From Actinosynnema sp. ALI-1.44 (GTDB taxonomy: Bacteria; Actinomycetota; Actinomycetes; Mycobacteriales; Pseudonocardiaceae): a DNA stretch of 64,000 nt. Below the pieces are notes generated by a model, which saw only the letters and a list, made by a program, of their open reading frames with translations, searched no databases and was not told the DNA's origin. Shown piece after piece: positions 43,687 through 62,666 of this stretch (position 1 is the first letter of the stretch; each line of letters starts with the position of its first letter). The translations under genes were made by a program, and so were the position numbers. Where the stretch lies: contig NZ_MTQO01000038.1 of the NCBI RefSeq assembly GCF_001984155.1, positions 62,001 through 126,000 on the forward strand, given 5' to 3'.

Positions 43687-44139
43687 TCAGGGCATCAAGC
43701 TCGCGGCGACGGTGGCACCGAGTTCCCAGCAGGCCTCGGTGTCCTGTTTCGTCGGTGTGCCAAGGACATTGACCGGTTCGGTGGCCTTCGCCCACCCCAG
43801 CGCGGCCGCGATCGACTCGACGGCGCGAACGGCACCCTCCGTGCCTTCGTTGCCGTGGATGTAGAGCGCGTACGGACGACCACGGGTGGAATCGAGGCAG
43901 GGGTAGTAGATCTGGTCGAAGAAGTGCTTCAACGCTCCGGACATGTAACCGATGTTGGCCGGAGTTCCGAGGATGTAGCCGTCCGCGTGGAGCGCGTCCG
44001 ACGCCGAAGCGGCCAAAGCCGCGCGGCGAACCACTTCGACGCCTTCGATCTCCGGCGCGGTCGCGCCGGAGACGGCGGCTTCGAACATCGCTTGTGTGGC
44101 TGGTGATGGCGTGTGGTGCACGATCAACAGGCGTGGCAT
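43687..44139 (-). CDS. Flavodoxin-like FMN protein (NADPH-dependent FMN reductase type)
   Basis: This 150-residue protein has the flavodoxin fold: phosphate loop region V-H-H-T-P-S-P-A-T-Q (about 7-16), then Y-I-L-G-T-P-A-N-I-G-Y-M-S-G-A-L-K-H-F-F-D (about 57-77), the FMN isoalloxazine loop. It may carry electrons or reduce quinones. The ATG at 44139 is used; the TTG 6 bp before is less likely. Its first 11 codons are duplicated at 45540-45571 on the far side of the inserted cassette, which separates it from its former upstream neighbour, the phosphomutase gene (2 bp gap in the ancestral order). Confidence 0.87.
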   Translation of the reverse strand: MPRLLIVHHTPSPATQAMFEAAVSGATAPEIEGVEVVRRAALAASASDALHADGYILGTPANIGYMSGALKHFFDQIYYPCLDSTRGRPYALYIHGNEGTEGAVRAVESIAAALGWAKATEPVNVLGTPTKQDTEACWELGATVAASLMP

Positions 44140-44258
44140 GCTCAAGCTCCCAGCAGTTGTGAGATCTCCGCCCGCAGTTCGCCCATTTTCGCCTGTGCGG
44201 CGGATCGCGCGGTGACCAGGTCGGTGTCGACGAGGGTGACGATCTCCAGGTACGCCTT
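44108..44258. repeat. 151-bp direct repeat, left copy, flanking the toxin/immunity cassette
   Basis: This copy matches 45540-45690 with a constant offset of 1432 bp, no gaps and about 11 mismatches by eye, most of them in the right third. It covers the first 11 codons of the flavodoxin gene, the 2-bp gap and the last 38 codons of the phosphomutase gene. The immunity gene stop lies exactly at its right border (44257-44259). Confidence 0.92.
44142..44258 (-). pseudogene. Duplicated 3' end of the phosphomutase gene
   Basis: On the minus strand this reads 38 codons plus stop, ending E-I-S-Q-L-L-G-A, the same end as the intact phosphomutase at 45574-47202. It differs from the intact copy at six residues near its start (for example I-V-T-L-V-D-T-D in place of I-V-A-P-V-D-T-N). 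It has no start and is a remnant created when the cassette was inserted. Confidence 0.85.
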
Positions 44259-44697
44259 AGAACCAGTCTGATTCATCGGGGTCGGTCCGTTCAGGCATCG
44301 GCTGCCACTCGACAGACGTTGGCCGCCGCGCCGTTGCCATGAATTCTTCTGCCGCTTGGCGCACCGCCACGATCGGGATTTCAGAATCAGACGGATATGC
44401 GGTGTCTGACCCCATGTAGTAGTAGAGAACGTCCGTCTCGTCTGTTGTCGCCTGGCCCTTGCTGTAACAACCTTCCTGGTGGTCCGTGCCCGTGTAGTAC
44501 AGGGCGCCTCGGTCGCCGTTCATGCCGACATCAAGGAAGGCCACAGGCTTGTCCTTAGGCGCCGCAAGCTGTGCAAGCACACGACCGTGTGTTGACAGAT
44601 CGTGCACCTGGTCCAGGATCGTGCGCAACTCGGTTGCGGTCCGGACAACCACCGGTTCATCGTGTTCATCCCGCCAATACGCTTCTAGCGCCACCAC
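44257..44697 (-). CDS. Imm1-type immunity protein
   Basis: This 146-residue acidic protein resembles the Imm1 family: V-L-A-Q-L-A region, D-V-G-M-N-G-D-R-G-A-L-Y-Y-T-G, a strand with V-L-Y-Y-Y-M-G, and the diagnostic A-A-E-E-F-M-A-T-A-R-R-P-T-S-V-E-W near residues 114-130. Imm1 proteins neutralise deaminase or nuclease toxins, DddI of the DddA pair being one. Its GTG at 44697 lies inside the end of the toxin gene (13-bp overlap), with a consensus AGGAGGTG site at 44706-44713. Its stop falls on the border of the left direct repeat. Codon use is less GC-biased than in neighbours, a sign of transfer. Confidence 0.8.
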   Translation of the reverse strand: MVALEAYWRDEHDEPVVVRTATELRTILDQVHDLSTHGRVLAQLAAPKDKPVAFLDVGMNGDRGALYYTGTDHQEGCYSKGQATTDETDVLYYYMGSDTAYPSDSEIPIVAVRQAAEEFMATARRPTSVEWQPMPERTDPDESDWF

Positions 44698-45446
44698 GGT
44701 TCCGCACCTCCTGTGTATTTTTTGTAAAAAGTCCGGCCGTCTGTATATTGACCATGAACAGTTAGACTATAGCCCGTGGGTAGTATCACCGGAACGAGCG
44801 TGTCACAACCCATCCGGCCCTTGCACGGTACATGGTTAATGACAACCGTCGCATGTTTCGTGCCGGTTGTTCGCTGCCAAGCGGCTGTTTTCATTTCAAC
44901 GTCACTCGCGCGCTGCGGCTTACCAGGGCTACCCATTGAGGCCAGGATGGAAATGACCTTGTCTGACATCGAATCCTTACCGCTCACCAGGTTCCTGACT
45001 TTGTCGCCAACAACGAGGCGGCCGTGTGTCTTGCTGCCCACGCCAGAGGTCACAGGCGGAGGGAGCTCTTCGCGAAGCTGTTTGATCTTCTCCGCAGGGA
45101 CAGGGCCGAAATCGGTGCCCGGCGAAGACGGGGCCGCCGCAGGCTCAGGGGGCGCGCGGCGCGTGGCTTCGGCGGCGGCAGCCCCAGGCCCGAGGCGCTT
45201 GACGTAGTCCTCCAAGATCTGTACAACGCGGTCCAGGTGATTCGACACCATGGCCACGATGTCGAGCGCTGCCGTGTGTTGCTCAATGACTTGACCGGCT
45301 TCCGGTGCGCTAGCTCCCTGCATTGCCCCCTGAGCAATAGACCGAGCTTCGTCCACGTGCGCCGTCACCTCGGCGAGAGTGGCCCGACCAGCTACGATCT
45401 TGTCCTTGATTTCACGCACGTCATTGCGCAATCCGCCAATGGACAT
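44685..45446 (-). CDS. DddA/SCP1.201-like cytidine deaminase toxin
   Basis: This is a 253-residue protein. Residues 1-87 are helical without signal peptide, like the delivery domains of small type VII-exported toxins. A Pro/Ala linker follows (about 88-130). The C-terminal domain (about 135-253) matches SCP1.201-like deaminases, the family of the double-stranded DNA cytidine deaminase DddA: S-D-V-E-M-K-T-A-A-W (about 181-190), A-T-V-V-I-N-H-V-P-C-K-G-R-M-G-C (Cys about 208 and 214) and I-L-P-T-G-Y-S-L-T-V. The first zinc ligand, usually His in H-(V/A)-E, is Asp here. The immunity gene follows directly. GC content drops at the 3' end (for example TATTTTTTGTAAAAAG). Confidence 0.78.
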   Translation of the reverse strand: MSIGGLRNDVREIKDKIVAGRATLAEVTAHVDEARSIAQGAMQGASAPEAGQVIEQHTAALDIVAMVSNHLDRVVQILEDYVKRLGPGAAAAEATRRAPPEPAAAPSSPGTDFGPVPAEKIKQLREELPPPVTSGVGSKTHGRLVVGDKVRNLVSGKDSMSDKVISILASMGSPGKPQRASDVEMKTAAWQRTTGTKHATVVINHVPCKGRMGCDTLVPVILPTGYSLTVHGQYTDGRTFYKKYTGGAEPWWR

Positions 45447-45540
45447 TGCCGATCATCCTACGCAGGCCGTCATAGGCGAGCACAATACGCAAACGGAGCG
45501 CCCGAACTTCCTCAGGCGCCCCGGTGGCGTCACCGCTCAG
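45421..45540 (-). pseudogene. Truncated 3' end of an unknown gene at the cassette border
   Basis: A frame on the minus strand reads S-G-D-A-T-G-A-P-E-E-V-R-A-L-R-L then I-V-L-A-Y-D-G-L-R-R-M-I-G and stops 26 bp inside the toxin gene. It has no start because it is cut where the right direct repeat begins. It looks like the end of a gene that preceded the toxin in the donor locus. Confidence 0.4.
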
Positions 45541-45690
45541 GCGTGTGGTGCACGATCAACAGGCGCGGCATGCTCAAGCTCCCAGCAGTTGTGAGATCTC
45601 CGCCCGCAGTTCGCCCATTTTCGCCTGTGCAGCGGATCGCGCGGCGGTCAGGTTCGTGTCGACCGGAGCGACGATCTCCAGGTACGCCTT
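45540..45690. repeat. 151-bp direct repeat, right copy, flanking the toxin/immunity cassette
   Basis: This is the partner of 44108-44258. It carries the true end of the phosphomutase gene plus the first 11 codons of the flavodoxin frame, which then runs into a stop (H-H-T-P-E-R then TGA). Confidence 0.92.
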
Positions 45691-47202
45691 CAGCTTCGGT
45701 TCCGTGCCCGACGGGCGCACAACCACCCGTACTCCGTCGCCCTTGAGCCGCAACACGTCCGCCTCGGGAAGCAAGTCCTCGGCGGTGACCGGCACCCCGG
45801 CGAGTGTCGAGGGCGGGTCGGCCCGCAGCTTCGCCATCAGACGGCCGATCAGCGGCAATTCGGTCACCCGCAACGAAACCTGGTCAGTCAGGTGCACGCC
45901 GTGCGCCAGGGCCAGGTCGTCGAGGACGTCCAGCAGTGTCCGCTCGGACGCCTTCAGGGTCGCCACGAGGTCGCAAGCCACCACGGCCGCTGATATCCCG
46001 TCCTTGTCACGCACGTAGGACGGGTCGACGCTGTTGCCGAGGGCTTCCTCGTAGGCGAAGACCAGGCCGTCGCCCGCTCGGACCAGCCATTTGAAGCCGG
46101 TGAGGGTTTCGGTGTACCTGGCTCCGTGCGCCGCCGCGATCGCGCCGAGCATCGAGGACGAGACGATGGTGGTCGCGACCAGTGCGTCCGGCACGCCGGC
46201 CGCGAGGATGTGCTCTCCAAGCAGGACGCCGGTTTCGTCGCCGCGGAGCATTCGCCATTTGCCGTTCTCCGGCACGCCCAACGCGCACCTGTCCGCGTCC
46301 GGGTCCAGTGCGATCGCCAGGTCCGCGCCTGCTTGCTCGGCCGCGGCCAGCAACAGGTCCGCCGCACCTGGTTCTTCCGGGTTCGGGAACGTCACCGTCG
46401 GGAACGCGGGATCCGGCTCGGCCTGGGCCGCTACCAGTGTGACGTCGGTGAAACCGGCCTGGTGCAAGGCCTTTGTCGCGGTCTCGCCGCCGACGCCGTG
46501 CATCGGCGTCAGGACCACCTTGATGTCCTTGGCGGTTCCGCGTGGCAGTGTGGCCACACGGGACAGATAGGCGTCGACGACGTCCTGGCGGGTCGATGCC
46601 GGGGCTTCCGCCCGGGGGATCGACACCGCCGGTGATGCGTCCCGGATCGCCGCTTCGATGATGCGGTCGTCCGGCGGCACGATCTGGGTGCCGTCCGCGT
46701 CGTAGAGCTTGTATCCGTTGTCCGCCGGTGGGTTGTGCGACGCCGTGATCTGGATCCCCGCCACCGCACCGAGGTGGCGCACGGCGAACGCCGTGATCGG
46801 TGTCGGCAAGGGCCCGTCGAGCTGGCAGACCTGGAATCCGGCCGCCGTCAGGACCCCGACCACGTCGCGGAAGAACTCCGCCGAGCCGGTGCGGGCGTCC
46901 CTGCCGACGACGACAAGACCGCCGGTGTGTCCCTTGTGGACGAGCCAGGTCGCCACGCCGTACGTGGTCCGCACGACCACGGACCGGTTCATCCCGTTGA
47001 CACCGGCGCGGACCGGGCCGCGCAGCCCGGCCGTGCCGAACGTCAGCGGGCCGGACATCCGGTCTTCCAGTTCGGCCAGTGCTTCCGGTGCGCCGCCCAT
47101 GGCCCGAGCGAGCACTTGCTGCAACTCGGTGCGGGCGGCAGGGTCGACGTCGTCGGCGATCCAGTGGAACGTCCTGTCGCGCAGTTCCGGCGTCAGCCTC
47201 AC
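45574..47202 (-). CDS. pmmB: Phosphohexomutase/phosphopentomutase (PmmB type)
   Basis: This 542-residue enzyme of the alpha-D-phosphohexomutase superfamily moves phosphate between C1 and C6 (or C1 and C5 for pentoses). The phosphoserine loop is I-T-A-S-H-N-P-P (about 152-159), the metal loop D-P-D-A-D-R-C (about 297-303) and the sugar loop near E-E-A-L-G-N-S-V-D (about 383-391), with the C-terminal phosphate motif V-R-P-S-G-T-E-P-K. Its GTG start overlaps the purine nucleoside phosphorylase stop by 4 bp. In that setting conversion of (deoxy)ribose-1-P to the 5-P for deoC is a sound inference. Its 3' end is duplicated at 44142. Confidence 0.93.
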
Positions 47203-61805: not shown

Positions 61806-62666
61806 TCACGCGACACTGGGCGGCCCTTGGTCGACACGCCGACGGATCGCGTCCGCGTTGTCGAGCAGCTCGCCGAAAGGCATGCGCTCGTCCCACCACG
61901 TCACGCCCGCGTCGGCCAACTGCTGGAGCACCGGCCACTTGCCGCCCGGGCTGGACCCGCCGATGATGAAGTCGAACGGCTGGTCGGCCAGCCCGGCCTC
62001 TTCACGCGCGGTCTGTAAGAACGTGCCCGCCGCGGTGACCTCGTCGAGCGGCGGCGGTTCCGCCTGCCATGCGCCGGACAACATCGGCATCGCCCCGTCC
62101 CACCTGGCCGCGCGGCGCATCGGCGGCAGGTTGGGCCACCTGCCACCCACCCAGATCGGCACACGCGGCCGTTGCACCGGCGTCGGCCGGAAGATCACAT
62201 CCCGCACTGTCACGTGCTTGCCTTCGAACGTGGTGCGTTCGCCCGACCAGAGCCGGTCGAGCACCGTCAGGCCTTCGTCGAGCCGCTCGGCCAGCACCCG
62301 CCGGGACGTCGGTTCGCCGAACGTGCCGTACTCGTCCTCCACCGGCTCGCCGAGGCCGACGCCGAGGACCATCCGACCGCCGGTGAGCCGGTCGAGCGTG
62401 GCCACTTCGCGGGCGAGTTTCTGCGGTCTGCGGCGGGCGACCGGGGTGATCATCGTGCCCAGCCTGATCCGGCTGGTGACCATGGCCGCCGCGGTGAGCA
62501 GGATCCACGGATCGGCGATCTCCCTGACCAAGCCCTTCTCGTGCACGACGTGGTCCCAGACGAACAGCGCGTCCCACCCGGCGTGCTCGACCGCCTGGGC
62601 GAGGACCGCGACGGCCTCCGGGTCGGCGAAGTCGCCGAAGTTGGGGATGTTCACCGAGAATCGCAT
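61806..62666 (-). CDS. LLM-class flavin-dependent oxidoreductase
   Basis: This 286-residue TIM-barrel protein belongs to the luciferase-like/F420-dependent family: I-P-N-F-G-D-F-A-D-P (about 7-16), A-V-E-H-A-G-W-D-A-L-F-V-W-D-H-V (about 26-41), T-S-R-I-R-L-G-T-M (about 69-77), L-D-R-L-T-G-G-R-M-V-L-G-V-G-L-G (about 93-108). Members use F420 or FMN. Substrate cannot be deduced. It stands alone between the sortase gene and the SixA-like gene, from which it is divergent by 49 bp. Confidence 0.9.
   Translation of the reverse strand: MRFSVNIPNFGDFADPEAVAVLAQAVEHAGWDALFVWDHVVHEKGLVREIADPWILLTAAAMVTSRIRLGTMITPVARRRPQKLAREVATLDRLTGGRMVLGVGLGEPVEDEYGTFGEPTSRRVLAERLDEGLTVLDRLWSGERTTFEGKHVTVRDVIFRPTPVQRPRVPIWVGGRWPNLPPMRRAARWDGAMPMLSGAWQAEPPPLDEVTAAGTFLQTAREEAGLADQPFDFIIGGSSPGGKWPVLQQLADAGVTWWDERMPFGELLDNADAIRRRVDQGPPSVA

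Follow-up and report, generated by a model that had tools for sequence, protein, structure and literature searches.

A deaminase toxin–immunity pair between long direct repeats in Actinosynnema sp. ALI-1.44, best read as an insertion that duplicated its target

A 64,000-nucleotide stretch of the genome of Actinosynnema sp. ALI-1.44 (positions 62,001 to 126,000 of contig NZ_MTQO01000038.1; hereafter the window) carries, between a phosphomutase gene and a flavodoxin-like gene, a small islet consisting of a deaminase toxin gene and its immunity gene enclosed by two 151-nucleotide (nt) direct repeats. Comparison with congeners identifies this islet as a real insertion between formerly adjacent genes, with both neighbours left whole, and the repeats are best read as duplicated target sequence, one case of a scar that is present at some related loci.

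The islet and its genes

In gene direction the order is intact phosphomutase gene, repeat, 93 nt, toxin, immunity, repeat and intact flavodoxin-like gene, with the following features (window coordinates; no strand applies to the repeats or the cargo stretch):

43687..44145, minus strand: flavodoxin-like / FMN reductase-like gene, intact neighbour
44108..44258: repeat copy 1, flavodoxin side, with the start of the intact flavodoxin-like gene and a remnant of the phosphomutase 3' end (38 codons plus stop)
44257..44697, minus strand: immunity gene, Imm1 (PF14430), 146 amino acids (aa); two bases of repeat copy 1 complete its stop codon
44685..45446, minus strand: toxin gene, 253 aa, an N-terminal part followed by a C-terminal PF14428 deaminase domain with D-V-E and P-C...C motif
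45447..45539: cargo stretch of 93 nt from the toxin start codon to repeat copy 2
45540..45690: repeat copy 2, phosphomutase side, with the 3' end of the intact phosphomutase gene and a remnant of the flavodoxin gene start
45574..47202, minus strand: phosphoglucomutase/phosphomannomutase gene, intact neighbour

An earlier sequence-only reading had described gap-free repeats about 93% identical, each holding the end of the phosphomutase gene and the start of the flavodoxin gene and differing mostly in one part, and all of this is confirmed: the copies agree at 140 of 151 positions, and 10 of the 11 mismatches fall within 39 nt (44199-44237; P = 1.6e-4 for random placement, by simulation). They share an identical stretch of 64 nt. 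The core between the repeats comprises 1281 nt with one toxin gene and one immunity gene, at 60% G+C as against 68% for the window; six other open reading frames (ORFs) of at least 60 aa that overlap it matched no Pfam family. As had also been claimed, no recombinase, transposase or integrase is present among the ORFs between the repeats, as judged from the ORF list and Pfam, and no terminal inverted repeats are found at the islet, the two inverted-repeat pairs that were detected lying away from its ends. Of the immunity stop codon one base belongs to the cargo, the repeat supplying the other two, and the protein stops one or two residues short of its three paralogues.

Several other accounts of this arrangement were considered and set aside. 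An assembly artefact is unlikely, because the repeat copies differ and the islet (at about 106.1-107.7 kb) is situated well within a contig of 247,967 bases. The islet lacks the transposase, the terminal inverted repeats and the short fixed target duplication of an insertion sequence or transposon, and the integrase of an integrase-borne island, repeat-flanked islets being found moreover at many different genes. The suggestion that the phosphomutase remnant is a decayed copy of the intact phosphomutase end was not upheld.

The toxin matches PF14428 with 98.6 bits (cut-off 25) and the immunity protein PF14430 with 94.9 bits (cut-off 22.4), in agreement with the proposed deaminase–Imm1 pair, and the two genes are new members of known families; the N-terminal part of the toxin gave a weak DUF6244 match, below cut-off. 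The predicted zinc site, [H/D]xE plus PC...C, is complete in the toxin (DVE, PC and second C). In an alignment of 104 PF14428 domains (L085-L184 of the survey described below, the window and the paralogues of this genome, drawn from the top of the score list), the position that we take to be the zinc ligand is D in 73, H in 30 and Q in one, whilst the presumed catalytic Glu is present in 103, PC in 87 and the second C in 103; Asp in place of the His ligand is thus the majority form in this sample. One paralogous toxin of the same genome (L026:9703-10455, contig C12) reads DVD where Glu is kept in 103 of the 104 domains, and may be inactive, to judge from this change, though its immunity gene is retained. 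This genome contains four PF14428 loci, and among the seven other genomes of the genus only G007 contains one.

Sequence comparison of the toxin matched no solved deaminase, and the immunity profile gave only a weak match to DddI (E = 0.0072). Of the label "DddA-like" in the sequence-only reading, the deaminase family (PF14428) stands, but double-strand activity of the DddA type is not implied: PF14428 is described as including single-strand as well as double-strand DNA deaminases (PMC10847098), so that the family does not fix the substrate of this toxin. Like the SCP1.201/DddA-like polymorphic toxins, for which Zhang et al. list Imm1 as a partner (PMC3482391), the window has a PF14428 toxin gene followed by an Imm1 gene, in toxin-immunity order; it differs in being a small stand-alone pair between long duplicated target ends, and in having Asp at the zinc-ligand position, in common with the majority of the domains aligned. 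The form "H[occasionally D]xE" is given in the same source for another deaminase toxin family, sce3516-like (PMC3482391).

Single-copy junctions and repeats at related loci

The genus sample consisted of eight genomes including this one. In six of the seven other congeners the phosphomutase and flavodoxin-like genes meet through a single 151-nt copy, the gap between them being -151 in four and -150 and -149 in two, which verifies the earlier claim that the neighbours were once adjacent and bears out the expected empty one-copy junctions; the claim that the gene ends were rebuilt likewise agrees with both neighbours being whole. The seventh congener (G001) has a 589-bp spacer at this junction, without repeats (L022:3079-3667, with a possible 80-aa ORF). 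The junction had further been expected to vary in cargo: other sites do vary between species, but no toxin cargo of another kind turned up at that of the window, where G001 has its spacer. The window copies are 93% alike, whereas the best match to another species reaches 78% over the full 151 nt, which places the duplication in this species or a very near relative. Where the two copies differ, at 11 positions, copy 1 shares the base of the nearest species at four and copy 2 at three; neither is therefore simply ancestral, and the species comparison proposed in the sequence-only reading does not single out a native copy.

PF14428 domains are present in 169 of 390 genomes of the family. We surveyed 100 listed PF14428 places with up to 3.5 kb on each side, comparing left with right flank and scoring direct repeats no more than 1500 nt from the domain and with E of at most 1e-4. 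Flanking direct repeats were found at 15 of the 100 loci, and ten remained, with repeats of 20-174 nt around the pair, when those that were tandem or toxin-derived were removed:

L107: 25 nt, 100% identical
L110: 58 nt, 100%
L117: 20 nt, 100%
L129: 100 nt, 97%
L145: 31 nt, 87%
L148: 29 nt, 93%
L157: 49 nt, 100%
L162: 27 nt, 93%
L177: 29 nt, 90%
L179: 174 nt, 99% (173/174)

A set of 16 loci in named genomes, some of them identical to survey loci, added a 308-nt repeat of 99.7% identity in Saccharothrix deserti (L050) and two weak matches of about 50 nt and 77-78% (L041 and L046). Among the loci removed, the L096 repeat translates into toxin-like sequence and that of L131 lies within the toxin frame. 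In L096 (2706-4187) the toxin-like coding piece, which repeats the N-terminal part of the toxin itself in direct orientation, lies on the downstream side of the immunity gene and is perhaps the remnant of an earlier toxin.

The joints were laid out for 14 islets, including L096, L131 and a wider L122. In nine of the 14, 10-139 nt separate the first repeat from the earliest start codon of the toxin frame (93 nt in the window), and in nine the second repeat either contains the immunity stop or lies at most 90 nt from it; the immunity frame of L117 extends into the second copy, where it terminates. In the window, L107, L117 and L162 the first repeat contains the end of a codirectional upstream ORF; in L110 such an ORF ends 3 nt past it. 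With L148 set aside, nine islets are retained, and the core of eight of them measures 1137-1556 nt, near the size of the two genes. As far as the sequences can tell, the ragged cargo ends look unlike the fixed ends of a transposon or site-specific island.

Empty sites were located for two of these islets. The L110 site is a 61-nt stretch (58 identical in a row) in which one gene ends and a convergent gene has its 3' part, and exactly one copy is present in 23 of 23 congeners. For L107, exactly one 25-nt copy is present in eight of 23 congeners, the nearest relative included (flanks 96.6% and 97.7% identical), and one further congener is near-empty (gap -7); G234 carries the same islet with the same ends, its core 89% identical and its repeats drifted, and in the remaining congeners the left flank was not found or a different sequence stands there. 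Because empty relatives at both sites carry exactly one copy, it is best taken to be the target itself that was duplicated.

The L107 junction (congener loci L245-L268) is hypervariable within one genus, three congeners having a related gene of 429-493 aa and another a gene of 256 aa; these were examined as different cargo between the same repeats, an idea that was rejected, the genes of the other species coming without a duplicated repeat. In L110 (G246) an in-frame stop interrupts the toxin domain although the repeats look fresh, and on its sequence the toxin is possibly already a pseudogene. At a reductase-like junction, four of 25 species of another genus have related toxin and immunity genes and a fifth has a lone immunity gene (L226); the loci concerned are L215, L226, L237, L238 and L239, with two immunity genes in L238, and among them the 49-nt repeat, which derives from inside the reductase-like gene, is found in L157 (the same place as L215).

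Other toxin classes were treated in the same way. Of 30 EndoU (RNase-type) loci three had a repeat before filtering and one after (L272), the orthologous pair L277/L278 having, at the same coordinates, a repeat that overlaps the toxin ORF. ParE loci gave five of 28 before and up to three of 28 after filtering (L303, L308 and L309), two of 30 being too short for scoring, with L300 excluded for a hairpin-like repeat and L325 for its 71 repeat matches. These rates did not differ significantly from those of the deaminase set, the control sets being small (L075, a shortened locus, was left out of the 30-locus comparison). At L272 (914-2419) an EndoU toxin and a probable immunity gene lie between 99-nt repeats of 99% identity with a core of 1308 nt, an anatomy like that of the window; the ParE locus L308 (1154-2928) has 212-nt repeats of 96% identity, and L309 an 82-nt repeat of 79%. 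Such cases argue against insertion driven by the deaminase and for a general gain of small accessory modules.

For chance expectation we used 100 loci (96 survey loci, the window and the three other loci of this genome). Exact matches of at least 18 nt between the edge zones occurred at nine of these, or seven of 98 without the window and L096, against an expectation of 0.00 from mismatched left-right pairs. Matches of 9, 10 and 11 nt numbered 99, 70 and 30, with 96.06, 63.98 and 27.55 expected, an excess so small that ordinary short target duplications are not seen. Of 30 control loci around the housekeeping gene PurA none had repeats, which differs from the unfiltered 15 of 100 (p = 0.015, one-sided). 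The repeat statistics alone are suggestive; it is the empty sites that carry the case.

Routes by which the pair may have arrived

The route that we tentatively prefer, with rather less than even confidence, is illegitimate capture of a two-gene fragment with duplication of the target (151 bp here). A DNA fragment with the complete toxin-immunity pair would enter the junction of two adjacent genes, and the duplication would restore the upstream gene's end and the downstream gene's start, so that nothing is lost. This could proceed by a staggered double-strand break whose overhangs are filled in during capture of the fragment, with joining by Ku-type end joining; the toxin might then be expressed by read-through from the upstream gene, which is plausible on sequence grounds because its start lies only 93 nt behind the repeat, and later divergence, or exchange between the copies, would yield the clustered mismatches. 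Staggered-break capture is the simplest account since the duplication varies in length, no target is lost, the cargo ends are ragged and no recombinase is present, and the duplicated target, the single-copy empty sites and the ragged joints are what end joining would lead one to expect. Ku genes are present in ten of ten genomes tested, Ku being the only part of the Ku/LigD pathway covered. Long duplications after offset nicks are known from work in plants. In Streptomyces, DNA of 30 bp to 18.8 kb was incorporated as induced breaks healed, and two of the pieces came from near the break (PMC5869714); uptake of this latter kind would fit L157 and L050.

A number of observations weigh against this route. 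No break or joining event was observed, 85 of the 100 survey islets have no flanking repeat at the threshold used, the other three PF14428 loci of this genome show none beyond chance, and five of the 15 repeats are tandem or multiple (L094, L099 and L103) or lie in the toxin gene (L096 and L131). The duplicated piece of L157 and L050 originates within the adjacent gene, an outcome that plain target duplication would not produce, and in L107 and L177 the first repeat lies in an open frame upstream of the toxin's first start codon, albeit with no likeness to other toxins. The clustered mismatches of the window do not fit simple decay of two identical copies. The mismatched-pair control, moreover, corrects for base composition but not for local duplication: shifted centres on the same loci gave repeats at 8/100 against 15/100 at 25 nt or more and at five against eight of 100 at 50 nt or more, whilst spacing-matched pairs numbered ten flanking and eight not (L094 skipped), or six and four without L099, L103, L096 and L131. 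After filtering, the difference from PurA (10/100 against 0/30) is not significant (p = 0.065 one-sided, 0.115 two-sided).

The sequence-only reading had instead held that homologous recombination brought in the pair from a related strain together with the DNA on either side of it, one repeat being foreign. We consider this doubtful, though a serious competitor. It draws strength from the 7% difference between the window copies and the concentration of that difference in 39 nt, from the presence in each copy of states absent from the nearest species, as two separate alleles would have, and from the L107 islet, which is found in two species while a nearer relative is empty; indeed, either two alleles joined by recombination or a later copy-to-copy exchange would give clustered mismatches with neither copy ancestral. 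It leaves the first origin of the duplication unexplained, however, and the donor must be conspecific or nearly so, given that the copies are so much closer to each other than to any other species. The near-identical copies elsewhere (58/58 in L110, 49/49 in L157 and 173/174 in L179), together with the one-copy empty relatives, point to target duplication instead. A circle holding the core and a single repeat copy, cut out by recombination of one repeat with the other and re-entering empty sites by a single crossover within the repeat, would yield exactly this anatomy and clean empty sites, and the 64-nt identical stretch in the window could hold the crossover; repeats of 20-30 nt (L107 and L117) are nevertheless short for homologous recombination, the joints look ragged where the L117 and window immunity genes end inside the repeat, and no circle was seen, such that we regard this route as unlikely.

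Mobilisation in trans by a transposase, integrase or retroelement appears more improbable still. The compact core, near the size of two genes, would suit it, and reverse transcription could yield target duplications of variable length; yet the window islet is without terminal inverted repeats, no conserved cargo ends were apparent by eye in the junctions inspected, short duplications are not in excess, the target genes differ and the repeats range from 20 to 308 nt. Least probable of all, and only barely credible in our estimation, is the proposal that the deaminase itself opens the site, uracils on both strands being processed to staggered breaks that capture its own gene. That nine of the 11 differences between the window copies are transitions is in its favour, as is the report that a DNA deaminase toxin mutagenises surviving target cells (PMC7901873). 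Similar repeats are nonetheless found at the EndoU locus L272 and the ParE loci L308 and L309, the EndoU control being weak in that the L277 repeat overlaps the toxin ORF. DddA prefers T before C, and this context is found in only one of the nine transitions.

Capture with target duplication also has partial parallels in systems already described. Touzain et al. (2010) report that 10-18% of small variable segments in alignments of E. coli, S. aureus and S. pyogenes are flanked by repeats, 66-94% of which are shorter than 30 bp and are discussed as deletion sites (PMC2884548); the flanking direct repeats are shared with our loci, but here several repeats are 50-300 nt long, that of the window spans two gene ends and the relatives are single-copy. 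End-joining capture in Streptomyces (Hoff et al. 2018, PMC5869714) similarly concerns an actinobacterium with Ku-dependent repair that takes up pieces of DNA at repaired sites, some of them copied from close to the break, but the breaks were induced and the DNA endogenous, and the available text of that study does not describe long target duplications around foreign genes. Homology-facilitated illegitimate recombination (PMC3240628) also brings in foreign DNA with one illegitimate end but requires a homologous anchor beside the cargo, and the merodiploids formed on transformation (PMC3784515) contain repeat-bordered duplications, which however measure about 100-900 kb. In the open-licence literature searched, so far as its accessible text extends, we found no description of long target duplications around toxin-immunity genes.

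Implications for gene gain in the family

The islet bears on how small toxin-immunity pairs spread with no visible mobility gene. It is conceivable, albeit rather unlikely on present evidence, that Pseudonocardiaceae, and perhaps other end-joining bacteria, acquire small accessory pairs of genes through insertions in which no transposase takes part and 20-300 bp of target are duplicated. Were this so, the long duplication would allow a toxin-immunity pair that has a slight promoter or none to take up a place between closely packed genes, directly after the stop codon of a host gene, with neither neighbour harmed. The toxin is also a further source of base-editor-type deaminase domains, in the version with Asp at the zinc site. 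A long duplicated target is, in addition, a readable scar: it predicts a single copy in relatives with an empty site, which can be tallied from genome to genome, and should end joining prove to be the route, gene gain in Ku-bearing bacteria would be tied to DNA repair.

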